From a virus: 42,383 bases of DNA. The translations under genes were made by a program, and so were the position numbers. Where the stretch lies: the IMG/VR virus record IMGVR_UViG_3300031962_000007, positions 1 to 42,383 of that record; one strand, given 5' to 3'. This document shows, in pieces, positions 14,469 to 42,383 of this stretch (position 1 is its first letter; each line of letters begins with the position of its first letter). The notes under the pieces are model-generated. The model did no database searches. It saw nothing but the letters and a program-made list of their open reading frames with translations, and was not told where the DNA came from.

Positions 14469-14680
14469 TGTTCTACTCTCAAAGACTAACGAAGCAACAA
14501 ACGGAAAACTTGTGCGTGCGGTGCGAAACGAAGTTCGACCGGTGGTCTACGTACCACCAACATGTGCTAAGCAACGATTGCAAGTTGGCCATAAAGCCTT
14601 TGAACACGAGCGGTCGGAGCAAAGAGGAAATAGTAAAGAGCTGGGAATCCCAGCAGAAACAAGGAGCTATAATCCGATGA
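14468..14680 (+). CDS. Small zinc-finger-like protein
   Basis: 70 residues. CVRCETKFDRWSTYHQHVLS followed by a Cys four residues on (C-x2-C ... H-x2-H ... C) resembles a single C2H2-type zinc finger, so DNA or RNA binding is possible. The C-terminal part is helical and basic. It overlaps the next gene's start by 4 bases. Function is inferred only from the motif. Confidence 0.55.
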   Translation: MFYSQRLTKQQTENLCVRCETKFDRWSTYHQHVLSNDCKLAIKPLNTSGRSKEEIVKSWESQQKQGAIIR

Positions 14681-15177
14681 AAAAAGCGATAATTATTAGC
14701 GTCGTTTTGTTCGCCATTCCCGCCTTGGGGCTGGCGACTAACGAAGGAAACGGAAATGGCAACGGAGGACCGGAAGGCAATGAAGGAATCATAGGACCGC
14801 AAGGACCTACGGGCCCGCAAGGACAGCCAGGGCCAAACGGTAGCAACGGAGCTAACGGCGTGAACGGACCTATCGGCGTCAACGGAAAAGACGGAAAGAA
14901 CGGAATCGACGCGAGCACGCAATTCAAGGGCACGGACTTGGCTCTCGACGCGGCGGTGAGAATCATCGACGTGAAGTATCTGCAGGTGCAAGCGTTCGAC
15001 ACATACGTGTTCGGCTCTACGCCAGGTTCGGACGTGTTTGGGCAAGGGCACAACTCGACGATAGGTGCGAGGATAGTAATAAAGCTAGGGAAGAGTTACG
15101 AGGAACGTTTGCTTGAAAAGCAGGCCTTAGAACTGAAAGCTCTTGAGGCTCGCCTATCATTGTTGGGAATGAAATAG
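14677..15177 (+). CDS. Secreted collagen-like protein
   Basis: 166 residues from an ATG with AAGGAG upstream. Residues 1-20 (MKKAIIISVVLFAIPALGLA) are a good signal peptide with an Ala cleavage site. Then comes an Asn/Gly-rich part and a run of about 12 Gly-X-Y triplets (GPQGPTGPQGQPGPNGSNGA and on), a collagen-like triple-helix segment. The C-terminal 90 residues form a globular or coiled part ending in a helix (LEKQALELKALEARLSLLG). Collagen repeats are frequent in phage fibres, but a signal peptide is unusual; export to the periplasm or cell surface is predicted. It lies in the early operon. Confidence 0.7.
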   Translation: MKKAIIISVVLFAIPALGLATNEGNGNGNGGPEGNEGIIGPQGPTGPQGQPGPNGSNGANGVNGPIGVNGKDGKNGIDASTQFKGTDLALDAAVRIIDVKYLQVQAFDTYVFGSTPGSDVFGQGHNSTIGARIVIKLGKSYEERLLEKQALELKALEARLSLLGMK

Positions 15178-16197: not shown

Positions 16198-16540
16198 GGA
16201 GCGAGATATAGCTTTCGGGCTTCATTCCAATATCCCACGTTGTTGTATTGATTTTTTCGTCAATGAATGGGACTGCACACGCGAGACTTTACACTCACGC
16301 GCAATCGATATAGCATGTCCACGGTGGAATTATGTTCCATGCCCTATTTGCCTAAAGAAAAATAACAAAGTCCGCATACGCGAATGTATAATAGAATGCG
16401 GGCGAGAGTGTTGGAAGTATTTTGACGAAAGGGGGCACTATGATAGCGGAACTTCTACTTTTGGGAACGCTCCAAGCAACGGCATATCGAGCAACGCCAG
16501 AGCAAACAAAGCCCACATGCAAAAATCGTCATGCATGTGA
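16190..16540 (+). CDS. Cys-rich protein, unknown
   Basis: 116 residues from ATG 16190 overlapping the previous gene. RCCIDFFVNEW, CPRWNYVPCPICLKKN and ECIIECGRECW give more than eight Cys, suggesting a zinc- or iron-sulfur-binding protein. The last third (about 33 codons) overlaps the following 3D-domain gene in another frame and looks less protein-like, so this tail may be under little constraint. Function unknown. Confidence 0.5.
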   Translation: MSRERDIAFGLHSNIPRCCIDFFVNEWDCTRETLHSRAIDIACPRWNYVPCPICLKKNNKVRIRECIIECGRECWKYFDERGHYDSGTSTFGNAPSNGISSNARANKAHMQKSSCM

Positions 16541-16808
16541 GACAAGTATCGGCGAAAATGTTTCAGAGCTTGGCGTTGCTGTTAGCCCCGATCTTTTGGC
16601 TAGTGGTAGAGTGCATTATCGTGATTGTCTCTATATTTCTGGGATTGGTTTTAGGATTGTTAACGATACCACCAATAAGCGTTTACATAACGCTGTTGAT
16701 GTATTCGTATATGAAAAGGGCGAAGAGAGACGATTCGGAATACGACATTTGAAAGTGTGGCTGATAAAGCCGCCAGACAAAACAAAAATCGCCGAGGAGG
16801 AAAAATGA
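16440..16808 (+). CDS. 3D-domain protein (lytic-transglycosylase-like fold), secreted
   Basis: 122 residues from ATG 16440 with GGGGG upstream. The first 18 residues (MIAELLLLGTLQATAYRA) look like a signal or anchor segment and include the TAY often found at the start of 3D proteins. The rest matches the 3D (Asp-Asp-Asp) domain: LGVAVSPDLLASG, then RIVNDTTNKRLHNAVDVFV with Asp-76 and Asp-87, then RRFGIRHLKVWL. These domains have the double-psi barrel of MltA-like peptidoglycan enzymes, so cell-wall action is plausible. One conserved Asp/Gly position appears altered (NDTTN rather than DTGG), so activity is uncertain. It may be a lysis or entry factor. Confidence 0.65.
   Translation: MIAELLLLGTLQATAYRATPEQTKPTCKNRHACETSIGENVSELGVAVSPDLLASGRVHYRDCLYISGIGFRIVNDTTNKRLHNAVDVFVYEKGEERRFGIRHLKVWLIKPPDKTKIAEEEK
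16558..16752 (+). CDS. Hydrophobic frame nested in the 3D-domain gene (uncertain)
   Basis: A 64-residue frame (MFQSLALLLAPIFWLVVECI...) lies wholly inside the 3D-domain gene in another frame. It would give two membrane segments and a charged tail (KRAKRDDSEYDI), the shape of a small holin. No good ribosome site is present (CGGCGAAA before the ATG). It may be a frame artefact of a T-rich gene or a genuine embedded gene. Confidence 0.25.
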   Translation: MFQSLALLLAPIFWLVVECIIVIVSIFLGLVLGLLTIPPISVYITLLMYSYMKRAKRDDSEYDI

Positions 16809-17047: not shown

Positions 17048-17195
17048 AGCTTATGGAAATCGAAAATCGACGCCCTCGCGGATGGCGCGAAAGCATGCAA
17101 GGCGCGAAGTGTTTGTGGCGAACAAAAAGATGGCTAAAGCGGCACGAAAAGCGGCCCGATTAAAACGGAAATCGCTCGAAGTGTCTTACGAATGA
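17037..17195 (+). CDS. Very basic small protein
   Basis: 52 residues, with about 20 Lys/Arg (KKMAKAARKAARLKRK). AGGAG lies about 10 bases before the ATG, and the stop overlaps the next start as ATGA. It could bind DNA or RNA. The basic composition is seen, the function is inferred. Confidence 0.5.
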   Translation: MQYKAYGNRKSTPSRMARKHARREVFVANKKMAKAARKAARLKRKSLEVSYE

Positions 17196-17659
17196 GGGGC
17201 CGTGTGGGTATATCGGGAAAGACAAATATGAATGACCGACACTTTGTAAAAAAGCAGAAGTTAAAAGAAATTAGCGGCTCAAGCGGGGCATATGAGCAAT
17301 GGATGGAGGGGCACAAAGGTTCCCGTTCCAAAGGATATAGACGCAAAGACGGGCTAGACGAGCGTTTTGGACGCATTACCGAGGACGTACTAGCCAATCC
17401 CGATAGCCTACAAGAGAGCGAGGCGATGTACGCCAATGACCAGCCCTCCAATCCGCACTTCATCTTGGGGGAAGCGGTGGAGCATTTGCAAGGACGACAA
17501 CGAGAGGTCTATTTGTTGACTATGCGGGAGGAGAAGTCGCTTGCAGAGGCCGCCCAAGTGCTCGGAATCGCGAAAGGCACCGCGCAAAAGTACCAGGAAC
17601 GGGCCATAAAATTTATCGAGAGCTATTGTAAGCAAGCAATAAATCGGGGGCGTGTATAA
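17192..17659 (+). CDS. Sigma-70 region 4-like transcription regulator
   Basis: 155 residues (or 143 from an internal ATG at 17228). Residues about 95-143 form a sigma region 4-type helix-turn-helix: LQGRQREVYLLTMREEKSL, then EAAQVLGIAKGTAQKYQER. The N-terminal 90 residues lack sigma region 2, so it is more like an ArpU or positive-control factor than a complete sigma factor. It may switch on late genes by binding host RNA polymerase or DNA; no phage RNA polymerase was found in the window, which would make such a factor useful. Confidence 0.7.
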   Translation: MRGRVGISGKTNMNDRHFVKKQKLKEISGSSGAYEQWMEGHKGSRSKGYRRKDGLDERFGRITEDVLANPDSLQESEAMYANDQPSNPHFILGEAVEHLQGRQREVYLLTMREEKSLAEAAQVLGIAKGTAQKYQERAIKFIESYCKQAINRGRV

Positions 17660-17996: not shown

Positions 17997-18511
17997 CATT
18001 CTCGGATCATTTCAAGCATTTCCTAACGGCCATTTGCACGGCCATTGTTTTCCTTGTGGCTGGATGGTTTGGCCTACGCCATATCGTCGCCGGTCAGCCA
18101 CAAGGCGTTGTTCTCAGGCCCCAGGACAAGGAGCGCGTGTCCTACAATTCGACCTCCCATATCCTTACCGTCACTACCGACAAGGGCACGACAAGATCAT
18201 ACACGCGCAATCTCAACATCCTCGTCGAGAAGAATGGGACGGTCATAATCAAGAAGCGTCTTGTAGGCTTCGAGCGGGCTCCGTTCATGGCCATAGGGGC
18301 ATCATTCGATGGCTTGTCACTGAAGAGGAATGGCTACCTAGGATTAAACTTAGTGGAACTTTGGCGATTCGATATCGGTCCCGCTCTTGCAATAGGCGAG
18401 ATCGGCGTTAGGCCGTTGGCGCAAATTCAATACAATTTCTACTCCAACACGAGCATCATGGTTGGTTGGTGGTTTGGTGCTTACCATGCTGCCATAGGCG
18501 TTAAGTTCTAG
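17993..18511 (+). CDS. Membrane-anchored phage protein with beta-rich domain
   Basis: 172 residues. An N-terminal membrane segment at about residues 10-28 (FLTAICTAIVFLVAGWFGL) is followed by a Thr/Ser-rich periplasmic-type part (SHILTVTTDKGTTRSYTRN) and an extended beta/Gly-rich C-terminal half (NGYLGLNLVELWRFDIGPA). No lytic motif. Third member of the membrane-gene run. A spanin-like or anchoring role is possible but not shown. Confidence 0.55.
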   Translation: MTFSDHFKHFLTAICTAIVFLVAGWFGLRHIVAGQPQGVVLRPQDKERVSYNSTSHILTVTTDKGTTRSYTRNLNILVEKNGTVIIKKRLVGFERAPFMAIGASFDGLSLKRNGYLGLNLVELWRFDIGPALAIGEIGVRPLAQIQYNFYSNTSIMVGWWFGAYHAAIGVKF

Positions 18512-18526
18512 AAAGGATGGCTATAT

Positions 18527-19144
18527 ATGCAAATTGATCGGCAATGGCTAGAACGCCAATGTGCATGTCCTGAAGGTAAAGAATTCTTCTTGGCGGAGGG
18601 GATTCTTCTTTTAGATGCTGGCACGCGTAATTTAATAAAAAAAGAAAAGCTTGAGTGGGCAAATTGGCTTGTAACACGCGCAATGAACCATACGCAAAAA
18701 GTGCTTTATGGAGTGTACGCTGCAAAACAAGTTTTACGACTATATGAGAATATCTATCCAAAAGATCATCGCCCCCGTAATGCGATTCAAGCTGCTTTAC
18801 GATTCGTAAAAAATCCAACTAAAGAAAATGAAGAGACGGCTTACGCGGCTTACGCGGCGGCTAACGCGGCGGCTAACGCGGCGGCTTACGCGGCTAACGC
18901 GGCGGCTTACGCGGCGGCTTACGCGGCTTACGCGGCGGCTAACGCGGCGGCTTACGCGGCTTACGCGGCGGCTAACGCGGCGGCTAACGCGGCTTACGCG
19001 GCGGCTAACGCGGCGGCTAACGCGGCTTACGCGGCTTACGCGGCGGCTTACGCGGCTAACGCGGCGATGAAAACGAAGATCATTTTGTATGGACTTCGAT
19101 TAATTAAAAAGGAGAATAAATCATATGTCAAGAGTGATTGCTGA
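18527..19144 (+). CDS. Ala-rich repeat protein with Tyr/Asn-Ala-Ala units
   Basis: 205 residues. The N-terminal 100 residues form a globular domain (CACPEGKEFFLAEGIL; LEWANWLVTRAMNH) resembling putative-immunity-type proteins with an Ala repeat tail. From about residue 105 to 180 the chain consists almost only of [Y/N]-A-A and [Y/N]-A-A-A units, then a short Lys-rich tail. The repeat would form one long Ala helix or solenoid. Weak ribosome site (AAGGATGG before the ATG). The last 20 bases overlap the next gene. Role unknown. Confidence 0.65.
   Translation: MQIDRQWLERQCACPEGKEFFLAEGILLLDAGTRNLIKKEKLEWANWLVTRAMNHTQKVLYGVYAAKQVLRLYENIYPKDHRPRNAIQAALRFVKNPTKENEETAYAAYAAANAAANAAAYAANAAAYAAAYAAYAAANAAAYAAYAAANAAANAAYAAANAAANAAYAAYAAAYAANAAMKTKIILYGLRLIKKENKSYVKSDC
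18838..19066 (+). repeat. Tandem 9/12-base repeats inside the Ala-rich gene
   Basis: About 230 bases built of GCGGCTTAC and GCGGCTAAC units with extra GCG codons. The pattern is irregular (9- and 12-base spacing), keeps frame throughout and encodes Ala with Tyr or Asn alternating. It has the look of slippage-generated expansion. No start or stop in the repeat interrupts the 205-residue protein. Confidence 0.85.
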
Positions 19145-27295: not shown

Positions 27296-27679
27296 ATGAC
27301 AGTTTGTCATCCGAAGCGAAAGCATTATGCAAAAGGTCAATGTGTTCGATGCTGGCGACGAGATTATTATGGAACGCCGGAATGGCAACAGAAGAAAGCA
27401 CAGTGGCAAAGTAGTTCTTATAGAGCCCATAGAACTTTTCATCTCGAAAAAAGTAAACTCTATCATGTCTGGAAAGCCTATGGAATAGACTTAGGCGACT
27501 ATTTTGCCTTACTAGCCGAGGGTTGTCAAATTTGTGGCAATCAAGCAATGGTTATTGACCATAGCCATAAAACAGGTAAAGTAAGAGGCGGTCTTTGTAA
27601 GCAATGTAATACAGGTTTAGGGATGTTTCGGGATAATCCAAAATTACTAAAAAGAGCAGGAGCGTATCTTGGATTATAA
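27296..27679 (+). CDS. Endonuclease VII-like HNH nuclease next to DNA polymerase
   Basis: 127 residues. N-terminal CHPKRKHYAKGQCVRCWRRD is a basic zinc module; CQICGNQAMVIDHSHKTGKV and CKQCNTGLGMFRDNP form the endonuclease VII-type core with DH-x-H and two CxxC zinc ligands. The gene is AT-rich and its last 11 bases overlap the polymerase start. It acts as a mobile homing-type gene or a resolvase; in T4 the family resolves branched DNA. Confidence 0.8.
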   Translation: MTVCHPKRKHYAKGQCVRCWRRDYYGTPEWQQKKAQWQSSSYRAHRTFHLEKSKLYHVWKAYGIDLGDYFALLAEGCQICGNQAMVIDHSHKTGKVRGGLCKQCNTGLGMFRDNPKLLKRAGAYLGL

Positions 27680-29712: not shown

Positions 29713-29875
29713 CGTTGGCCGTGCCATATATAAGCGTGGCAAGTTATATTTTAACGACGTTAGTTGGACGATGGTAAAAGCCGTCGCACGACGAACGAAA
29801 AAATCGCCAAAGATAGTTGTTATAGCTGCGTTAAAACGACACGCACGACTTATAGGAAAAAAGAGGTTTATTTGA
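29702..29875 (+). CDS. Small basic protein overlapping the HNH frame
   Basis: 57 residues from ATG 29702 (MENSVGRAIYKRGKLYFNDV...), basic, with SKSP-like turn and IVVIAALKRHARLIGKK at the end. It overlaps the previous gene by 11 bases and the first 112 bases of the HNH gene in another frame. Composition looks protein-like. Which frame is used in the overlap is uncertain. Confidence 0.4.
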   Translation: MENSVGRAIYKRGKLYFNDVSWTMVKAVARRTKKSPKIVVIAALKRHARLIGKKRFI

Positions 29876-30129
29876 AAAAACAAAGATGGAGTAGTCGCTT
29901 TTTCGAGAAAGAACGTGCAACTTTAGCTAAACAACAAGATGGAAAATGTGCTATTTGTAAAAAACCAGAGTCTATGTTTAAGCGTAGACTGAACCTAGAT
30001 CACAACCATAAAACAGGTCAAATCAGGGGTTTACTTTGCTATCGCTGTAATAAATTTGTAGTTGGTCGGCATGATCTTGAGTCCGCTACAAAACTACTAA
30101 ATTACTTGAAAGTGGAGGCTATAAAATGA
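29764..30129 (+). CDS. Endonuclease VII-like HNH nuclease
   Basis: 121 residues from a TTG at 29764. A second possible start is a TTG at 29872 with GAGG five bases upstream, giving a shorter protein. N-terminal CYSCVKTTRT matches the first zinc pair in sister genes, then CAICKKPESM, LDHNHKTGQIRGLLCYRCNK is the typical core with DH-x-H and CxxC. The gene is AT-rich. Its stop overlaps the next ATG by 4 bases. One of four endonuclease VII-like copies in the window. Confidence 0.75.
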   Translation: MDDGKSRRTTNEKIAKDSCYSCVKTTRTTYRKKEVYLKKQRWSSRFFEKERATLAKQQDGKCAICKKPESMFKRRLNLDHNHKTGQIRGLLCYRCNKFVVGRHDLESATKLLNYLKVEAIK

Positions 30130-30457: not shown

Positions 30458-30620
30458 AGACAGGATTCGTAAGAAAAAAGATAAGGCTTGGCATTGGCCA
30501 TATCAACGCATGAGCGATGGTCCCGAATACTCTTGTCGTCATGGGGTTGGCCATAGTCGGGGAGTCCACGGTTGCGATGGATGTTGCTCTGATCCAAACT
30601 TTCCAAAGGAGAGGTGCTAA
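30441..30620 (+). CDS. Small Cys/His-rich protein (HGCDGCC motif)
   Basis: 59 residues with GAGAGGAG upstream. CRHGVGHSRGVHGCDGCCSD is a characteristic short phrase of a small phage protein family and would bind zinc. The N-terminus is Lys/Arg-rich. Function unknown. Confidence 0.6.
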   Translation: MTKQTKDRIRKKKDKAWHWPYQRMSDGPEYSCRHGVGHSRGVHGCDGCCSDPNFPKERC

Positions 30621-30621
30621 A

Positions 30622-31332
30622 TTGGCTAAAATTCGTTTTCTCGACATAGAAAGTCATGGATCGTACTTTAAGGCCGACTCAGGCTTCATATTCTGCATGA
30701 GCTACAAGGACCTCGGCGAGAAGAAGGTGCACACGGTCGTCAGAAACAACGTTCTTCCCGATCCCTACGACGACAAGGCCCTTTGCAAGCAGATATACGA
30801 TATCATAGGCGATGCGGACATGATCGTGACGCACAATGGGAAACGGTTTGACATTCCGTTCATAAACACACGCCTACTTATCCACGATCTGCCACCATTG
30901 CCCAACGTTCCGCACTTCGACACCTGCGAGATTATATTCAAGAAGCTAAAGATGTCGGGACGGCTCGACAACACGTCGGCCACCTTCGGCTGGAAGTTAA
31001 AGAAGCATGGCGTAGAGGTGCAAAAGTGGTTTAGGGCGGCAGCTGGCAACAAGGCGATGCTCAAAGAGATTGTGAAGCATTGCGAAATAGATGTGAAGTT
31101 GCTTGAAAAAGTGTATCTCAAGTTACGCCCGTTAGGGTTCAAACACCCGAACATCGCCCTCATTAACGAGGATGGTCGGCAATGCCCAATCTGCGGCAAA
31201 AAAGGGACACTGCAATCGCGGGGATGGCTTCCGGCCCAAGTGAATAAGGCCAAGCGATACCAATGTACCTCATGTGGCGGATGGTCTCATGCGCGATATG
31301 AGAAGGTAAAAGGCGTGGATATCAGGCTATGA
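30622..31332 (+). CDS. DnaQ/YprB-like 3'-5' exonuclease with zinc ribbon
   Basis: 236 residues from a TTG with AGAGG seven bases upstream. RNase H-like motifs in order: IRFLDIES (D8, E10), THNGKRFDIPFI (70-81, with D77), and HCEIDVKLLEKVY (153-165, D157). A C-terminal zinc ribbon, CPICGKKG (188-195) and CTSCGGW (215-221), follows. This is the YprB-type nuclease family. It may process RNA or DNA ends; a substrate cannot be told from the sequence. Confidence 0.8.
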   Translation: MAKIRFLDIESHGSYFKADSGFIFCMSYKDLGEKKVHTVVRNNVLPDPYDDKALCKQIYDIIGDADMIVTHNGKRFDIPFINTRLLIHDLPPLPNVPHFDTCEIIFKKLKMSGRLDNTSATFGWKLKKHGVEVQKWFRAAAGNKAMLKEIVKHCEIDVKLLEKVYLKLRPLGFKHPNIALINEDGRQCPICGKKGTLQSRGWLPAQVNKAKRYQCTSCGGWSHARYEKVKGVDIRL

Positions 31333-31586
31333 GCGAGGGGTTCATTATCGATCCTTGGGTGGGGTTGCTGTTCTTTCGTTTTTGTCGCCGCTATGGCGTG
31401 CAAAGGCGGGAGGACCGCGTTCTTCTCATGCGAGAACTTGCCCGTCGTAAGAAAGCCCAGTATGTGCGGGACGTGAAGCCGCTCCTTGCGGGAAAGAATG
31501 TGTTGCAAATAATGTTCAAACCACCTTATAATCCTGGGCCTGAGCACATATGTCCTGAATGTAGACCATGGAGGAATGAAGTATGA
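31329..31586 (+). CDS. Small basic protein with C-terminal CxxC
   Basis: 85 residues, ATGA overlap with the exonuclease gene. Basic helical middle part (REDRVLLMRELARRKKAQYV) and HICPECRPW near the C-terminus, which could be half a zinc knuckle. Unknown. Confidence 0.5.
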   Translation: MSEGFIIDPWVGLLFFRFCRRYGVQRREDRVLLMRELARRKKAQYVRDVKPLLAGKNVLQIMFKPPYNPGPEHICPECRPWRNEV

Positions 31587-31702
31587 ACTTATTGGTGCTT
31601 GTTGGGGTAGTTTGCGTCGTTGTTGGAGTCGTGAAAGGCTTGGGTTGGCTAGGCGGTGGACTAGCATTGCTTGTGTTGGGTACTATGATTGAGTTCTGGT
31701 AA
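31583..31702 (+). CDS. Very small membrane protein
   Basis: 39 residues, almost all hydrophobic (MNLLVLVGVVCVVVGVVKGL then GGGLALLVLGTMIEFW), giving two short membrane helices. ATGA overlap with the gene before. It directly precedes the membrane-anchored protease. Coding is plausible. Confidence 0.5.
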   Translation: MNLLVLVGVVCVVVGVVKGLGWLGGGLALLVLGTMIEFW

Positions 31703-31715
31703 AAAGGAGAGAAAA

Positions 31716-32468
31716 ATGAGACGCCTTATCCGCACACTCGCTACTTTAGGCCTATTGAGCCTCGGAATTTGGGGTTGGAAAAGAGAGGAAGGATTTAAAC
31801 CACGGGTTAAAGTTCCTGTGACCCGCTATCACGGCTATGAATTAAATCGTGAAGCCATCAATCGCGCCAAAGCCTTCACTGTTCTCATTAGCAACGAAGG
31901 ATTTGGTAGTGTAGGCCGAGGGACCGGCGTTCTTATTGATCCTACCCACGTTCTTACGTGCGCTCATATGGTGGAAAGTTCGCAAGACGACATGTGGATT
32001 TATCCCTATCCAATAGGTATAGTAGTAAAAGGAAAACCAATACTTGTCAATAGCGGCGTTGATCTTGCCGTTCTTGAGCTTAGTAGCGCGGTTGTGATCG
32101 CGCATTACGCCGTATTTCAGGACATGCACTATGACGGCGAGCCCATAACCATAGTGGGAAATATTCTAGGCTCAATGAAATGGTTTGTCAGTTTTGGAAT
32201 CATAAGCGGAGACTTTCAAGGCTATCTTTTGACGGATGGTTTAATCCATGGAGGAAATAGCGGCGGCCCTTGGATCAACGAGCGAGGGGAAGTAGTGGCT
32301 ATAACTTCATGGGGCTTGCAGAACCGAAAGGACGAGGAGTTGGGAGTTAGCGGAGGAGTGTCAGCGAGCACTATTCATGAGTTTTTGAGGACATGGAAGT
32401 CTCCTTCAATCGGCCAAATATTGCGGATGATCTTGGGCGGTAACAGCATCAAAAAGGGGGACAAATGA
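31716..32468 (+). CDS. Membrane-anchored trypsin-like serine protease
   Basis: 250 residues from ATG 31716 with AAAGGAG upstream. Residues 1-25 form a basic N-terminus and hydrophobic segment (IRTLATLGLLSLGIWGW), a signal anchor. The S1 catalytic triad is complete: His in LTCAHMV (residue 84), Asp in GVDLAVLEL (116) and Ser in HGGNSGGPW (182). No PDZ domain follows, unlike DegP. It would act in the periplasm or at the membrane. It lies at the end of the early operon among membrane proteins and could degrade host factors or process phage proteins; this role is inference. Overlaps the next gene by ATGA. Confidence 0.82.
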   Translation: MRRLIRTLATLGLLSLGIWGWKREEGFKPRVKVPVTRYHGYELNREAINRAKAFTVLISNEGFGSVGRGTGVLIDPTHVLTCAHMVESSQDDMWIYPYPIGIVVKGKPILVNSGVDLAVLELSSAVVIAHYAVFQDMHYDGEPITIVGNILGSMKWFVSFGIISGDFQGYLLTDGLIHGGNSGGPWINERGEVVAITSWGLQNRKDEELGVSGGVSASTIHEFLRTWKSPSIGQILRMILGGNSIKKGDK

Positions 32469-32659
32469 AACACTATATTTCCGCCGGTCTGTTGACCGCG
32501 TTGATCTTGTTCCCATTGTTTGACTATACCTACGTGAAAGGTTGCCAGGACGGAGTAGCGCGCTACAAGCGTAGTAAGAACTTCATGCTCACACTATACA
32601 GCATGTACATGTTCGGCGTACGCGATGGATATGACGCCTGCAAGGGAGGAAAGAGATAA
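32465..32659 (+). CDS. Small membrane or secreted protein
   Basis: 64 residues with an N-terminal hydrophobic segment (YISAGLLTALILFPLF), then KGCQDGVARYKRSKNF and VRDGYDACKGG. Two conserved-looking Cys in the exterior part may pair. ATGA coupling to the protease gene. Unknown. Confidence 0.5.
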   Translation: MKHYISAGLLTALILFPLFDYTYVKGCQDGVARYKRSKNFMLTLYSMYMFGVRDGYDACKGGKR

Positions 32660-32730
32660 TGCCGCCTATAATTATGCTAGTGGCATGGGTTGCGTGGATG
32701 GCGGTCGTACTAGCGGGAATGAAGCAATGA
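32659..32730 (+). CDS. Very small membrane peptide
   Basis: 23 residues (MPPIIMLVAWVAWMAVVLAG...), a single membrane helix. It starts in a TAATG overlap with the previous gene and its stop overlaps the next ATG. The tiling supports it, but the short length leaves doubt. Confidence 0.4.
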   Translation: MPPIIMLVAWVAWMAVVLAGMKQ

Positions 32731-32918
32731 ACACGTTGGCGACTCTAATAGCCATAGCGGCGTGGTGCGGCCAGCCTAATGCCGGTCTCTATGGGTCCGG
32801 ATGGTCACCACGCGCAGTACAACAGTGCCGACAAGCCATATGGGCTTGCCTGCAGAAGCATCCTCATGACGCCCAATGCTTTTTAGACGAGAAGCTCGAC
32901 GCGGAGGAAATAAAATGA
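32727..32918 (+). CDS. Small secreted-like Cys-containing protein
   Basis: 63 residues. A short hydrophobic N-terminus (MNTLATLIAIAAWCG) precedes a Gln/Trp/Cys-containing part with Cys at QQCRQAIWAC and QCFLDEKL. It could be a small exported protein with disulfides. ATGA overlap with the previous gene. Confidence 0.5.
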   Translation: MNTLATLIAIAAWCGQPNAGLYGSGWSPRAVQQCRQAIWACLQKHPHDAQCFLDEKLDAEEIK

Positions 32919-33010
32919 ATTTATGGAAGGCATTTGCGATTTGGTTGCTCGTGGCGGTAGGTAGTTATTTAGGCGTGTGCTTATTGTTCGTGTTGTTAGG
33001 CGGGTATTGA
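32915..33010 (+). CDS. Very small membrane protein, last gene of the plus-strand operon
   Basis: 31 residues (MNLWKAFAIWLLVAVGSYLG...), one long membrane helix. ATGA overlap with the gene before. It overlaps the end of the converging minus-strand gene by 15 bases, and no terminator hairpin is visible between the two operons. Confidence 0.45.
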   Translation: MNLWKAFAIWLLVAVGSYLGVCLLFVLLGGY

Positions 33011-33526
33011 TTCTACTTTTACGGTAAATTCATCTGGAAGAATTGTCATCATCCTATCGAAAGCAGCACGACTATTGTCCAGACTGTCATTGTCGATGGT
33101 TGTACCTATGGCAATGCAGCCCTCTAGTTGTGCTGGATAATTGGCCGGATGGATTTCGATGTAGGTGCGGCTTGGCACTTGAAGATGCGGAGTCGCAAAT
33201 CCGAAATGCGGCGAAATCTCCTTACAAGAACGGTATATGCCCTCTGGTATTGCTACCTCTATCCTCTCCATTGTAAATCCGAGCGGTTTTCCTTCATAAT
33301 CCATAGTTCCAAAATGAGCGTCTGTCGTTTTCATCTTTGGGTCCCGTGTTACGCGGAGCAGGTTTGTCGCATTCGTCGAGGTCGATGTTGAAGCCGCATC
33401 GCTCGCGGGAGCACTTTGTGATGCGGTACCATTGTTTAGTGCGCTTGGACTGCTCGAAGATGCGAATAGGGATGACAGAGAGGTGGCAACCTGGGCAAAC
33501 AATCGCATCCATACGGGTCCCTCCAT
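32996..33526 (-). CDS. DUF5675-like protein with Ser/Thr/Ala-rich N-terminal linker
   Basis: 176 residues from ATG 33526 (GGGGAG upstream). The C-terminal 120 residues match the DUF5675 pattern: LLRVTRDPK, FTMERIEVAIPEGIYR, RTYIEIHPANYPAQLEGCIA and an ending DEFTVKV. The family has an L,D-transpeptidase-like look but no proven activity. The N-terminal 55 residues start MEGPVWMRLFAQVATSLSSL and then run Ser/Thr/Ala-rich; they overlap a zinc-ribbon-like frame on the same strand. It lies next to a small coiled-coil membrane protein, so the pair may be lysis- or entry-related. An upstream in-frame ATG (33613) would overlap the previous gene. Confidence 0.65.
   Translation of the reverse strand: MEGPVWMRLFAQVATSLSSLFASSSSPSALNNGTASQSAPASDAASTSTSTNATNLLRVTRDPKMKTTDAHFGTMDYEGKPLGFTMERIEVAIPEGIYRSCKEISPHFGFATPHLQVPSRTYIEIHPANYPAQLEGCIAIGTTIDNDSLDNSRAAFDRMMTILPDEFTVKVESIPA
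33294..33512 (-). CDS. Zinc-ribbon-like protein nested in the DUF5675-like gene
   Basis: 72 residues from ATG 33512, with GGAGG seven bases upstream, an excellent ribosome site. IVCPGCHLSVIPIRIFEQSK and WYRITKCSRERCGFNIDLDE give a C-x2-C ... C-x4-C zinc ribbon. It lies entirely inside the DUF5675-like gene in another frame. The composition is more protein-like than the Ser/Ala-rich linker of the other frame. Either the two genes overlap or one N-terminus is wrong. Confidence 0.45.
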   Translation of the reverse strand: MDAIVCPGCHLSVIPIRIFEQSKRTKQWYRITKCSRERCGFNIDLDECDKPAPRNTGPKDENDRRSFWNYGL

Positions 33527-33528
33527 TT

Positions 33529-33702
33529 CTATCTCCCCGCTAGATGTACGTGGTGCAGAGTCTCTATCAAGATCGGCGATCCGAGGATGAACCAAATGGA
33601 CTTCTTCAGCCACTTAAGGTCCCCCCGTATCTCCCCCGATTCTATGAGGTGCTTCTCCAGGGCCTCTTCGAGCCTGGAGATGCGCTTTTCAAGGCTGGGC
33701 AT
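33529..33702 (-). CDS. Small coiled-coil membrane protein (XhlA-like layout)
   Basis: 57 residues from ATG 33702. Residues 1-30 form a charged coiled coil (LEKRISRLEEALEKHLIESG), then LKWLKKSIWFILGSPILIE carries one membrane segment with a basic start. This layout resembles XhlA/hemolysin-like phage lysis proteins, but the match is by shape only. It overlaps the 650-residue gene by 14 bases and ends two bases before the next ATG. Confidence 0.55.
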   Translation of the reverse strand: MPSLEKRISRLEEALEKHLIESGEIRGDLKWLKKSIWFILGSPILIETLHHVHLAGR

Positions 33703-35652: not shown

Positions 35653-38148
35653 TTACGGCTGAACCTGTAAGTTGGGGTCTAGTTGTTTGGCTTTTGACAG
35701 GTTGCCCGCCGGAATCCAGAGCGTCTGACCGTCCGAAGACTTTATGAGCACGTTGCCCTTGGCTCTGTTGAAGTAATTGTCTGCTAATTTTGATCCGCTG
35801 GCCTGTAGTTGTGCCGCGCTGGGCTTGATGCTGAGCACGGATGCGTTCTTTACTGCGTTGTCCACGTCAGTTGAGGCCTGCGCGTGCGCCTTCATATAGA
35901 GGTCCGCATCCTTCTCTTGCTTGGCCACCTGGGCCGACATCAGCTGGAAGTACGTGGGTAAGTCCTTCTTCATCGTGCCCTTGGGTGCCCCTATCATCTT
36001 GTTGAGGGTGTCATCAACGCCGTATGCGTCCGCAGCGGCAGCCTGCTTAAGGGCGTTATCACCCATTTGCGTCTGCAGTTGCAGCTTTTGAATTCTGTCC
36101 TGGCGAGCCTTGTCGAAGTTGGCTAGAGCCTCGTCCCGCTGAGTCTTTTCCATGGTGAATATGTTCTGCAGCGAATGCTGCTCCTTTCCGCCCTTGGCGG
36201 CGAGCGCGTCCCCGAGCCCAGAGACGGCCTGCGCGATGACCGCGCCTAGCCCGTGTTGCTGCTCCTGTAACTTGTCGGCCAGGGCTTGCCGGTCCTCGGG
36301 ATTGACCCCCTCGGTAAGCTTGGACGTGTCCTGGTTGAATATAGTGCCTAGATTTGGCATACCTGCGGTAGAGGCGACCGGCGTGGCCGCCGGAGCGGCT
36401 GGCTTTGGTAGCGGGGCCGCCGGAGGTACGACTGGCGGCATGGGTGGTGCCGCAACTAGAGCTGGAGGCGTTGCCGTCGCTCCAGGCAGATTGGTACCCA
36501 ACGCCGCATTGACGGCTGGCGCGATTCCTGGGGTCGCCGCTACGTTTGCCGCGCCTTCCGCGACGGCTGGCATCGTGGGCAAAGTTTTTCCAAGCGTGGT
36601 GCCGACTTGCGACAAAGCTGCCTTGATCTGGTCCCAGTATGTGGGGTCACTAGGGCTTGGCGAAGCCATACCGCCAGTGGTCACAGTACCATCGCTTGGT
36701 GTAACTCCACCGTCCGCGTACTGCTTAATTCCCATGGCTTTGTATATCGCACGCAGTTTCTCGTCACTAGGGGCCGCTAGCTTTGGCTTTTCTGGTTCCG
36801 CGTTGCGTCCCTCGGCCTTCTTCAGCGTTCCGCCTTCGGCCATAGTGATGGGCATCGTCGCCCCATCTTTCTGGACTTCCGCATCCCCGTGAGTCTTCAC
36901 CCTTTCCATATCCCCTTCTTTCGATGTGACCGTGGCTGGAAGGGCGACTTTGACGGTGTCGCCAACGTCGTCCTTGGCCATCTCGTCCGGCGTGCGTTTC
37001 AAGTGAAATTCGGTGTCCTTGGACACGATGGGCACGGACATGTGCGACTCGCGGTTGACGTGAACATCCCCGCCTGGCGCGTGCGGGACGGCTCCGCCCT
37101 TGGCCATATGTTTAGGATTCTCTTTTTCGCCCGTTTCCGTCATGTCTTTCTTTACGGATGGGTCCATTCCTTGTACATGTGTAACCTCTTTCACTTTACT
37201 TAGTGGTTCATTTTCTAGGAATGTAACGTGTGGATAGCCACCTTCTGCATAATTTTCATTTCGCCCAGTAGCGGCATTTCCTAGAGTTTTAGATGCTTCT
37301 TTTGTAAGATGAACATCTTTTTTAACTCCTGGAAATTTTTCGTTTTCTAGAAGGGTAACATGAGGATAGCCACCCATAGCCATTGCACGAGCCATCATAC
37401 CGTTTGGGACAGGATGGGCCAAAGAAGAGCGTTCCACTTTACCGCCCTCGGCAAATGGTTGAGGTTGAGTATTACTTGGTTCACGTTGTGTGGCTTCGGG
37501 AGACGTATAGCCGCCTTCAGCATAGGCATTAGGCGCAACCTGGCTAGGAACATTAATTTGCGCTGGTAGAATTCCTTTAGCTCTAAGGATATGCTCAGGA
37601 ACAGAACCAGGAGCTGCATCGCCAAATTCAGACTTCAAAAGCTCTGGCGGTCCTTTAACACCCCAAATTTTAACATCTCCGCTTGGGCTTTTTTGAATGC
37701 CCTTAAGAAAGGCTTCGATCTTTGGGGCAGCTGCTTCTGTCACCCCTTCCATTTTTGGAGCCGCTTTATTAAAAGCGGTTTTAATGGCAGGAGATACTTT
37801 ATAAGAGGCTTTTTTTGCCATTTCTAAAGCTTGCGCTGCTGTTTCATCTTCAGGTCCTAAAGTCATAGCACCTGTTTCACCTAAGCCTTCAAGAGTCATA
37901 GGCAAACTTTCGGCCAAACTTTTGGTAGCTGGGCCCAAAAGATAAGGGGCTAAAAAGTCTGAAACAGTTGTATCTTGTATACCTGGTTCATCCTGTATGC
38001 TCCCTCCCTCCGCCATATTCTTTCCGCCGCGCGGATGCGCGTTATGCAAAGCTGCGGCAACAGCTTGATCGTGAGGATGACCGCTTGCTTGCATCTCTTT
38101 TATATTATGGGCTATAATGTCAGGACTTTTGCCGGATTTAAGAGGCAT
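35653..38148 (-). CDS. Large internal-virion-like structural protein with AEGG repeats
   Basis: 831 residues from ATG 38148; an upstream extension would overlap the HNH gene. It begins MPLKSGKSPDIIAHNIKEMQ and ends its first module with PHDQAVAAALHNAHP, a small motif found in many phage structural proteins. There are repeated patches of AEGG (at about residues 45, 214, 238, 308, 347, 445 and later) and a doubled GGYPHVTxLENE phrase. The C-terminal 300 residues are Ala/Gln/Lys-rich and helical (QAVSGLGDALAAKGGKEQHS). Likely a partner of the 650- and 444-residue ejection proteins. The 5' third is AT-richer than the rest. Confidence 0.6.
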   Translation of the reverse strand: MPLKSGKSPDIIAHNIKEMQASGHPHDQAVAAALHNAHPRGGKNMAEGGSIQDEPGIQDTTVSDFLAPYLLGPATKSLAESLPMTLEGLGETGAMTLGPEDETAAQALEMAKKASYKVSPAIKTAFNKAAPKMEGVTEAAAPKIEAFLKGIQKSPSGDVKIWGVKGPPELLKSEFGDAAPGSVPEHILRAKGILPAQINVPSQVAPNAYAEGGYTSPEATQREPSNTQPQPFAEGGKVERSSLAHPVPNGMMARAMAMGGYPHVTLLENEKFPGVKKDVHLTKEASKTLGNAATGRNENYAEGGYPHVTFLENEPLSKVKEVTHVQGMDPSVKKDMTETGEKENPKHMAKGGAVPHAPGGDVHVNRESHMSVPIVSKDTEFHLKRTPDEMAKDDVGDTVKVALPATVTSKEGDMERVKTHGDAEVQKDGATMPITMAEGGTLKKAEGRNAEPEKPKLAAPSDEKLRAIYKAMGIKQYADGGVTPSDGTVTTGGMASPSPSDPTYWDQIKAALSQVGTTLGKTLPTMPAVAEGAANVAATPGIAPAVNAALGTNLPGATATPPALVAAPPMPPVVPPAAPLPKPAAPAATPVASTAGMPNLGTIFNQDTSKLTEGVNPEDRQALADKLQEQQHGLGAVIAQAVSGLGDALAAKGGKEQHSLQNIFTMEKTQRDEALANFDKARQDRIQKLQLQTQMGDNALKQAAAADAYGVDDTLNKMIGAPKGTMKKDLPTYFQLMSAQVAKQEKDADLYMKAHAQASTDVDNAVKNASVLSIKPSAAQLQASGSKLADNYFNRAKGNVLIKSSDGQTLWIPAGNLSKAKQLDPNLQVQP

Positions 38149-38551
38149 GATTTTTCTCCAAGTAGGAAATAGCAGACGATAGAAATATCTTAGAGTCTCT
38201 AAAGCACCCAATTCCTTGATTACATTTATCGCATAATAACCCTCTAACTTTATTAGTTCGATGGTCATGATCTACAGCAAGAGCCTTATTGCCATTTACT
38301 TTGTAGCATATAGCGCATAATCCTTTTTGACTTTCGAGAAGCCTATCATAGTCTGCCCTCGTTAAACCGTAAAATAGTTTTATTTTTGCGTACCGATCCA
38401 CTTCATATAATTTTTCAGGGTTATTCTTTTTCCATTGATTAGCACGAATCCCTGTGCACACCTTACAAGCACGGCTAGACAAAAAACGACCACCTATAAA
38501 AGTATCGTGGCCTTGTATACAGAATTGTTTTCGTTCTCCAAGAATAGGCAT
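38138..38551 (-). CDS. Endonuclease VII-like HNH nuclease between virion genes
   Basis: 137 residues. N-terminal RACKVCTGIRANQWKKN supplies a zinc pair, then CAICYKVNGNKALAVDHDHR and GLLCDKCNQGIGCFRDS form the endonuclease VII core. The gene starts in a TAATG overlap with the 444-residue gene and its stop overlaps the start of the 831-residue gene by 11 bases. It is AT-rich relative to most of the virion genes. A mobile homing-type gene is the best interpretation. Confidence 0.78.
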   Translation of the reverse strand: MPILGERKQFCIQGHDTFIGGRFLSSRACKVCTGIRANQWKKNNPEKLYEVDRYAKIKLFYGLTRADYDRLLESQKGLCAICYKVNGNKALAVDHDHRTNKVRGLLCDKCNQGIGCFRDSKIFLSSAISYLEKNHAS

Positions 38552-41362: not shown

Positions 41363-41788
41363 TTAGTTTGTGATTGGCGGCCATCGCACTTCGACAGTCA
41401 CAGAATATGGCACACTATCAGTTAGACCGCAAATACCCAAAATGTTCAGTTTTCCATCTGTGAAATTCCAGCTGACGAATGGAGCCGTGGCAAAGACGAG
41501 GCTCGACCCATCCGTGGGCACTATCTTTCCGAGCGTTAGACGGCTTGGTTGGTACGAAAATAAGGCCACGAAACTGAACGTGTTGTTTGCGGCCACTGAT
41601 GAGCCGACGATACTGAACGTCTTCACCTGGCAGATGTCGTTTTCCTCCGGCGTCAGCTGATTTTGTAAGCCGTAGTAGAGCTGCTGGAAAAAAAGATTTA
41701 TAGCGTAGAGGAGCTTGCTTTTCCAACTTCCTTTCGGCGCATCGTTCAGGTCTTCTTCTGTCAGCCTTCTGTAAGTCAGGTTCTTCAT
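41363..41788 (-). CDS. Small tail or head structural protein
   Basis: 141 residues. The N-terminal part is helical (DAPKGSWKSKLLYAINLFFQ), with a beta-rich C-terminal domain (SFVALFSYQPSRLTLGKIVP, then YSVTVEVRWPPITN). It starts in a TAATG overlap with the HNH gene and lies before the internal virion genes, where podoviruses carry tail accessory genes. No catalytic motif. Function is inferred from position. Confidence 0.55.
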   Translation of the reverse strand: MKNLTYRRLTEEDLNDAPKGSWKSKLLYAINLFFQQLYYGLQNQLTPEENDICQVKTFSIVGSSVAANNTFSFVALFSYQPSRLTLGKIVPTDGSSLVFATAPFVSWNFTDGKLNILGICGLTDSVPYSVTVEVRWPPITN

Positions 41789-42192
41789 TAAATACTGCCT
41801 AAATATCTTTCTATTTTTTCTTTGTGATTTTCGTAGTGACCAACCGCAACATTACAACCTACGCATAAAAGACCTCGAACTTTTTTAGTTTTATGACAGT
41901 GGTCAATAACTAGTGGCTTTCGTTCATAACACATTGCGCAATAGCCATCTTGTTTTACTAGTAAAGTCTGATACTCTTCAACCGTCAAAGCATATTTTCT
42001 TTTAAGATCAGACTTTAAATTGATTTCTTGAACTTTTTCCTTGTGAATTTGTCGGTATTTTCTTTGAATCAAAGCTTTGCATTCCTTGCAAAAATACTGT
42101 AGACGATCTTTACTATAGTTGCTTCGAGAAAAAGCTTCTATAGGCTTTTCTTTTTTACAGCCTTTACAAAGTTTAAGTGATACTGTAATCAT
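41788..42192 (-). CDS. Endonuclease VII-like HNH nuclease near the right edge
   Basis: 134 residues from ATG 42192; an upstream in-frame extension would overlap the tail gene fragment. LKLCKGCKKEKPIEAFSRSN is the first zinc module with CxxC, FCKECKALIQRK the second, then CAMCYERKPLVIDHCHKTKK and GLLCVGCNVAVGHYENH the endonuclease VII core. It is AT-rich. It sits two bases after the upstream virion gene and overlaps the next by one base. Confidence 0.8.
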   Translation of the reverse strand: MITVSLKLCKGCKKEKPIEAFSRSNYSKDRLQYFCKECKALIQRKYRQIHKEKVQEINLKSDLKRKYALTVEEYQTLLVKQDGYCAMCYERKPLVIDHCHKTKKVRGLLCVGCNVAVGHYENHKEKIERYLGSI

Positions 42193-42194
42193 AT

Positions 42195-42383
42195 CTACTT
42201 GCTCCGAGTCGTAGTGTCGGCATAGACCACAACACACCCACCGTAGGTGAAGCCAACCATCGCTTGGCTTAAGCTTAATGAGATATTTAACCAGTGAGCC
42301 CGTCGAGCTGGCAATGGAATGTACGTACGTATGGACGATACGGCGAATGGGTCCACGCCACCCCAATACGCCTGCCCCCACTG
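42195..42383 (-). CDS. C-terminus of a virion protein, 5' end cut by the window edge
   Basis: A frame open from the right edge to a TAG at 42195 gives about 62 residues (QWGQAYWGGVDPFAVSSIRT..., ending YADTTTRSK), rich in aromatic and beta-forming residues. Position and composition fit the end of a tail-tube or head-completion protein in the same late operon. The other frame across this stretch is the extended HNH reading, which I reject. The identity cannot be fixed from the fragment. Confidence 0.45.
   Translation of the reverse strand, partial: QWGQAYWGGVDPFAVSSIRTYIPLPARRAHWLNISLSLSQAMVGFTYGGCVVVYADTTTRSK

Follow-up and report, generated by a model that had tools for sequence, protein, structure and literature searches.

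A PDZ-less trypsin-like protease with a predicted membrane anchor in a clade of tailed phages, and an RseP-type protease gene beside it in one relative

The protease gene and its predicted anchor

The tailed-phage contig analyzed here (42,383 bases, IMG/VR; hereafter the window) encodes a 250-aa trypsin-like serine protease with a predicted membrane anchor at 31716-32468 (+). The preliminary description had read the locus as a complete S1 triad with an N-terminal anchor, rare in phages of this type and followed by a coupled series of tiny membrane or secreted proteins, which might together modify the host surface or its stress responses.

The coding sequence starts with ATG at 31716, a few bases 3' of the Shine-Dalgarno sequence AGGAG (31705-31709, +). 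A program-listed open reading frame begins instead at TTG 31689, an unlikely start because the proteases of the relatives begin at the homologous M-R/K-R. The protein matched the Pfam family Trypsin_2 (PF13365) with an E-value of 2.8e-17, above the gathering score, and also matched Trypsin (PF00089, E 2.8e-9). The catalytic residues were H84 (codon 31965-31967, motif TCAHM), D116 (32061-32063, VDLAVLEL) and S182 (32259-32261, GNSGG within GGNSGGPW), all on the plus strand, so the triad is complete as described. Its loss in relatives, which the preliminary description would have taken as evidence against its reading, was looked for, and all 13 aligned sequences (the window protease and those of 12 other phage contigs) keep the three residues. 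Judged by the Pfam cut-off, the triad and the fold match, the window protease belongs to the S1 chymotrypsin-fold serine peptidases (Trypsin_2).

An AlphaFold model built on an alignment of ten sequences (mean pLDDT 69.5) consisted of a helix at residues 2-25 (31719-31790, +), a disordered linker and a two-barrel protease. The hydropathy of this helix is moderate in the window protein, with a KD17 value of 1.46, below that of one internal segment (1.78). Across the 13 sequences the values ranged from 1.5 to 2.9, and the helix was clearly hydrophobic in most of the relatives, so the proposed anchor held up as a conserved feature. The AxA signal-peptidase motif was absent from most of the relatives' anchors. 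Positive charges flank the helix on both sides, and charge does not settle the topology. The window protease is likely to be membrane-attached, as suggested partly by the helices of the relatives and partly by the modeled helix. In L143, a divergent member, the protease may be secreted instead of anchored.

Conservation, operon setting and similar phage proteases

An IMG/VR scan with the protease as a single protein found no close relatives. The clade was gathered through searches with the DNA polymerase and the portal protein, which were 70-73% and 78-95% identical, respectively, on contigs of about 50 kb; we take these to be soil phages from the contig prefixes of the metagenome sources. The protease occupies one slot in each of the nine near-full relatives, 3' of the exonuclease gene and 5' of a DUF5675 gene. 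A further 16 records searched were fragments of 4-33 kb with no protease, which does not count as evidence that the gene is missing. A family profile added three more distant loci (L140, L143 and L144). About a dozen contigs represent the clade.

The 12 other proteases were 28-69% identical to that of the window. At the DNA level, pN was 0.20-0.26 against a saturated pS of 0.71-0.90, which shows strong purifying selection. Given its presence at the same slot in all nine near-full relatives, the triad kept in 13 sequences and this selection, the protease is a core gene of the clade. The slot seems to retain its predicted activity even as its sequence is replaced or evolves quickly. In L133/G011, a relative with a 74% identical DNA polymerase, protease identity falls to 28%, but the anchor, the S1 domain and the triad are all kept. 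Within the 28 records whose DNA polymerase is about 36% identical, no Trypsin_2 gene was found, and hence the protease is not tied to the polymerase.

The genome is divided between the strands. The minus strand carries the structural genes (terminase, portal and virion proteins) together with endonuclease VII, and the plus strand carries the replication genes (primase/polymerase-like, DNA polymerase A and exonuclease). The protease lies near the end of the plus-strand operon, co-directional with the DNA polymerase and exonuclease genes. Upstream are the DNA polymerase exonuclease subunit that marks the slot (30517-31332, +; phrog_403, E 5.4e-47), an 85-aa gene (31329-31586, +; 53-62% identical in six relatives) that occupies the same place in most near-full relatives, and a 39-aa transmembrane ORF immediately before the protease (31583-31702, +). 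A promoter scan gave 11 matches against 5.8 expected, a result that is not interpretable.

Four ORFs follow, each overlapping the preceding stop by 1-4 bases. They encode a 64-aa protein with an N-terminal transmembrane segment (32465-32659, +; ATGA overlap with the protease stop), a 23-aa transmembrane peptide (32659-32730, +; TAATG coupling), called from its ribosome-binding site and hydropathy, a 63-aa product with a signal-like N-terminus and four Cys (32727-32918, +; ATGA coupling), and a 31-aa single-transmembrane peptide that is the last of the operon (32915-33010, +). The coupling argues that these small ORFs are real. Homologues by sequence were found for the 64-aa protein, at 56-84% identity in four of the nine relatives, three of them directly 3' of the protease; none was found among the relatives for the 23-, 63- and 31-aa ORFs or the upstream 39-aa ORF. 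Most relatives end the operon with transmembrane ORFs of 26-48 aa, analogous to the 31-aa peptide and with no sequence match to it. The preliminary description thus had the extent of the series (32465-33010) and its membrane or signal-like character right; the series has four ORFs, not three. A 97-aa ORF at 32625 has a wrong start.

Convergent with the operon, at the end of the late genes, lies a DUF5675 protein (32996-33613, -; Pfam E 9.2e-18) conserved in relatives. Its IHPANYP..LEGCIAIG segment recalls the YkuD motif HxGxxxxxxxGC, and it may be a peptidoglycan enzyme. Beside it, a 57-aa protein with a coiled coil and a transmembrane segment (33529-33702, -) is conserved in all nine relatives; it is XhlA-like by architecture only and had no Pfam match.

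The claim of rarity stood only in part, because the protease is universal in its own clade and similar ones are annotated in other phages. Small exported or anchored trypsin-like proteases occur in Rhizobium/Sinorhizobium phages (16-3 p036, phiM9 gp102, P10VF_080 and RHph_TM3_3_14B) and in Sulfitobacter phages. The former resemble the window protease in being exported or anchored, in their length of 212-299 aa, too short for a PDZ domain, in their profile E-values (4e-7 to 1e-15) and in an accessory or early-looking location; they differ in sharing less than about 30% identity, across part of the domain, and in their sporadic occurrence in unrelated phages. The protease of Sulfitobacter phages pCB2047-A/C (SUAG_00063) is likewise a small exported S1 enzyme (profile E 1.3e-20), but has a cleavable signal peptide and lies in the lysis cassette. 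In T4-like phages the related protease gene stands alone, in the vicinity of the major capsid gene. A small MotA/TolQ/ExbB-like membrane protein was observed at or just after the protease in several Rhizobium/Sinorhizobium phages (L153:4678-5103, L156:4139-4564, L155:4504-4920 and L160:4214-4690; Pfam 6e-5 to 1e-4 in two), possibly forming a protease/ion-channel pair.

Likeness to DegS and a site-2 protease in a relative

DegS lacking its PDZ domain was the top PDB fold match of the protease (E 3.8e-12), with HtrA1 alongside at about 4e-12. The family profile matched HTRA1 (E 5.8e-21), DegS and DegQ at E-values from 6e-21 to 1e-18, and aligned with DegS (5jd8; E 1.2e-20) from just past the anchor across the whole protease domain. 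The architecture of DegS (E. coli; TIGR02038/NF008147), the sigma-E site-1 protease, is also similar, with a short N-terminal tail, a membrane helix, a linker and an S1 domain. However, Pfam found no PDZ domain in the window protease, and the approximately 22 residues beyond the protease domain leave no room for one. The L3 loop is also shorter than in DegS by about nine residues. It has about 6 residues in 12 of the 13 members and 13 in L133, while DegS and HtrA1 carry 9-12 extra residues there in a HMMER alignment. In DegS, L3 residues 176-189 carry autoinhibitory contacts with the PDZ domain (PMC11642142). HtrA1, DegP and DegQ (S1C) share the fold and the GNSGG active site, and differ from the window protease in their PDZ domains and in its predicted anchor.

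Scores against the NCBIfam HtrA and DegS models were far below the cut-offs (DegS, 24.2 bits against 422.95), and cellular HtrAs were all about equally distant. On these sequence features, the protease falls outside the HtrA family (S1C), which requires at least one C-terminal PDZ domain, and with a short L3 and no PDZ it lacks the elements of DegS-type allosteric control. It would work like a DegS/HtrA protease domain freed of its sensor.

Exported PDZ-less trypsin-like phage proteases were already known; the surprise is the partner found in one relative. This genome (G023, also L132; IMGVR_UViG_3300024331_000001) encodes a 247-aa M50 protease (record positions 18338-19012, -) in the operon of the S1 protease, about 0.8 kb further downstream and with clade genes on both flanks. 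The protein matched Pfam M50 at 2.4e-49, has intact HEASH and NLFPIPALDGG motifs, and scored 172.9 bits with the NCBIfam model 'RIP metalloprotease RseP', over the cut-off of 147.55. By its HExxH and LDG motifs and this score, it is an RseP-type M50 site-2 protease. Residues 6-109 and 125-243 match residues 4-107 and 309-425 of an RseP homologue. Thus the HExxH/LDGG motifs and two membrane halves are shared with RseP, but the tandem PDZ domains of about 200 residues are replaced by about 15 residues, and the gene is phage-encoded beside a site-1-like protease. The M50 gene was present in one of the 32 records searched, and in one of the 13 protease-bearing genomes. A second viral contig with such a gene was not found in IMG/VR, and among isolates most matches came from records that were unannotated or looked bacterial.

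In E. coli, DegS (site 1) and then RseP (site 2) cut RseA, freeing sigma-E, and disruption of the RseP PDZ domains permits RseA cleavage without the site-1 cut (PMC10202637). A pair of site-1 and site-2 proteases, both devoid of regulatory domains, is what would be expected of a short-circuited cascade; for the window phage this evidence is circumstantial. The stress-response part of the earlier suggestion thereby gained support from an unexpected side, through a gene of a relative. A literature search on phage site-1 or site-2 proteases, or on phage-triggered sigma-E, found nothing on point.

The reading that we favor, with a probability of about 0.4, is that of an inner-membrane-anchored, unregulated DegS-like site-1 protease acting in the host periplasm on host membrane or regulatory proteins. 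It is ranked first mainly because of the pairing of two PDZ-less proteases in G023. We infer the topology, constitutive activity, timing and target as follows. The protease would be expressed from the distal part of the replication operon, and its N-terminal helix would insert in the inner membrane, with the catalytic domain facing the periplasm. Unlike DegS, the enzyme would need no unfolded-porin signal for activity, and its substrates would be host membrane proteins, cut in their periplasmic part and most likely including a regulator such as an RseA-type anti-sigma factor. The stub would be finished by a site-2 protease, the host RseP in most phages of the clade and the phage PDZ-less RseP in G023. 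The M50 gene is absent from the window phage, which would consequently need the host enzyme.

More tentatively still, and with the odds against it, the clade may carry a constitutive cascade of regulated intramembrane proteolysis, with a PDZ-less DegS-type protease as a core gene and a PDZ-less RseP in at least one member, that bypasses the host envelope-stress sensors and frees a membrane-held regulator on the phage schedule. HtrA-like phage proteases have so far been annotated with no function, and a clade with a universal PDZ-less protease and one PDZ-less RseP pairing makes the idea concrete and testable. Phages may seize the two-step envelope-stress switch of the host with proteases stripped of their sensing domains; if true, this would be a new level at which phages control host sigma factors.

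Among the alternatives, the protease might serve surface or periplasmic exclusion or counter-defence, clipping a receptor, ejection proteins of incoming phages, membrane-anchored defence proteins or small toxins. Among clade members, protease identity drops faster than DNA polymerase identity (means of 47% and 73%, respectively), as is often seen in host-interaction proteins, and in several Rhizobium/Sinorhizobium phages a related protease begins an operon with the MotA/ExbB-like membrane protein. The RseP of G023 would fit as well, since RseP reportedly degrades small membrane proteins and suppresses HokB toxicity (PMC10470546). However, the locus has no direct link to defence or exclusion genes, and the PADLOC matches were generic trypsin domains in other architectures, which leaves this explanation somewhat unlikely. 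Less likely again is an accessory role in lysis, in which the exported protease would weaken the envelope or process lysis proteins late. It adjoins the convergent cassette of DUF5675 and the coiled-coil protein in most relatives, and the signal-peptide-bearing protease of Sulfitobacter phage pCB2047-A lies directly 3' of endolysin and XhlA-like genes. But the protease is on the replication-gene strand; in L140 and L143 it stays near the exonuclease gene with DUF5675 6-7 kb off, and neither Rhizobium phage 16-3 nor T4-like phiM9 has it in a lysis cassette.

The HtrA-type fold would also suit a DegP-like quality control that clears misfolded envelope proteins accumulating during infection. Such degradation needs PDZ domains and large oligomers, and deletion of PDZ1 abolishes DegP activity (PMC11642142). 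With no PDZ domain in the window protease, we consider this role improbable. Serine proteases are indeed employed in phage head maturation, one example being the S49-type enzyme of Felix O1, but processing of a virion protein is very hard to reconcile with the predicted anchor, a gene outside the structural operon and a family different from the known head proteases.

Host, donor and other genes

Phages of Silvanigrella, Pseudomonas and Rhizobium are weakly similar to the window phage, which hints at a Gram-negative host. A portal search of GTDB genomes found neither host nor prophage, and the Silvanigrella phage CP017838, the nearest isolate by portal and terminase, has no such protease. The protease profile matched a single HtrA-like gene in GTDB, from Chloroflexi at 30% identity, which points to no donor lineage.

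Several other genes were noted. Five relatives carry, near the protease, a conserved protein of 369-424 aa (L129:9712-10956, +; L132:3864-4973, -; L140:8505-9713; L143:4415-5689; L144:10546-11679) with an N-terminal amphipathic or membrane helix and no Pfam match. Its AlphaFold model bore a weak resemblance to (alpha/alpha)6 glycosidases, for example chitosanase or GH76/Dfg5 (best E 6e-3), and the protein is possibly a membrane-bound envelope glycosidase.

In the window, an exported-looking protein (14680-15177, +) contains a collagen-like G-x-y repeat (Pfam Collagen, 5.6e-7), and a small exported protein (16422-16808, +) shows weak similarity to L-alanyl-D-glutamate peptidases over their C-terminal part (phrog_2307, 4.9e-5). 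A sigma-factor-like protein (17192-17659, +; phrog_1190, E 5e-9) resembles region 4 only and is possibly a late-gene regulator. Within the ORF at 18527-19144, a long A-A-Y/N-A repeat in 9- and 12-base units (18824-19070, +) encodes AAYAANAAAYAA-type sequence. Several HNH/endonuclease-VII-like ORFs are also present: those at 38138-38551 and 41788-42381 matched Pfam Endonuclease_7, and those at 27296-27679 and 29764-30129 appeared HNH-like on reading the sequence and comparing it with the relatives.
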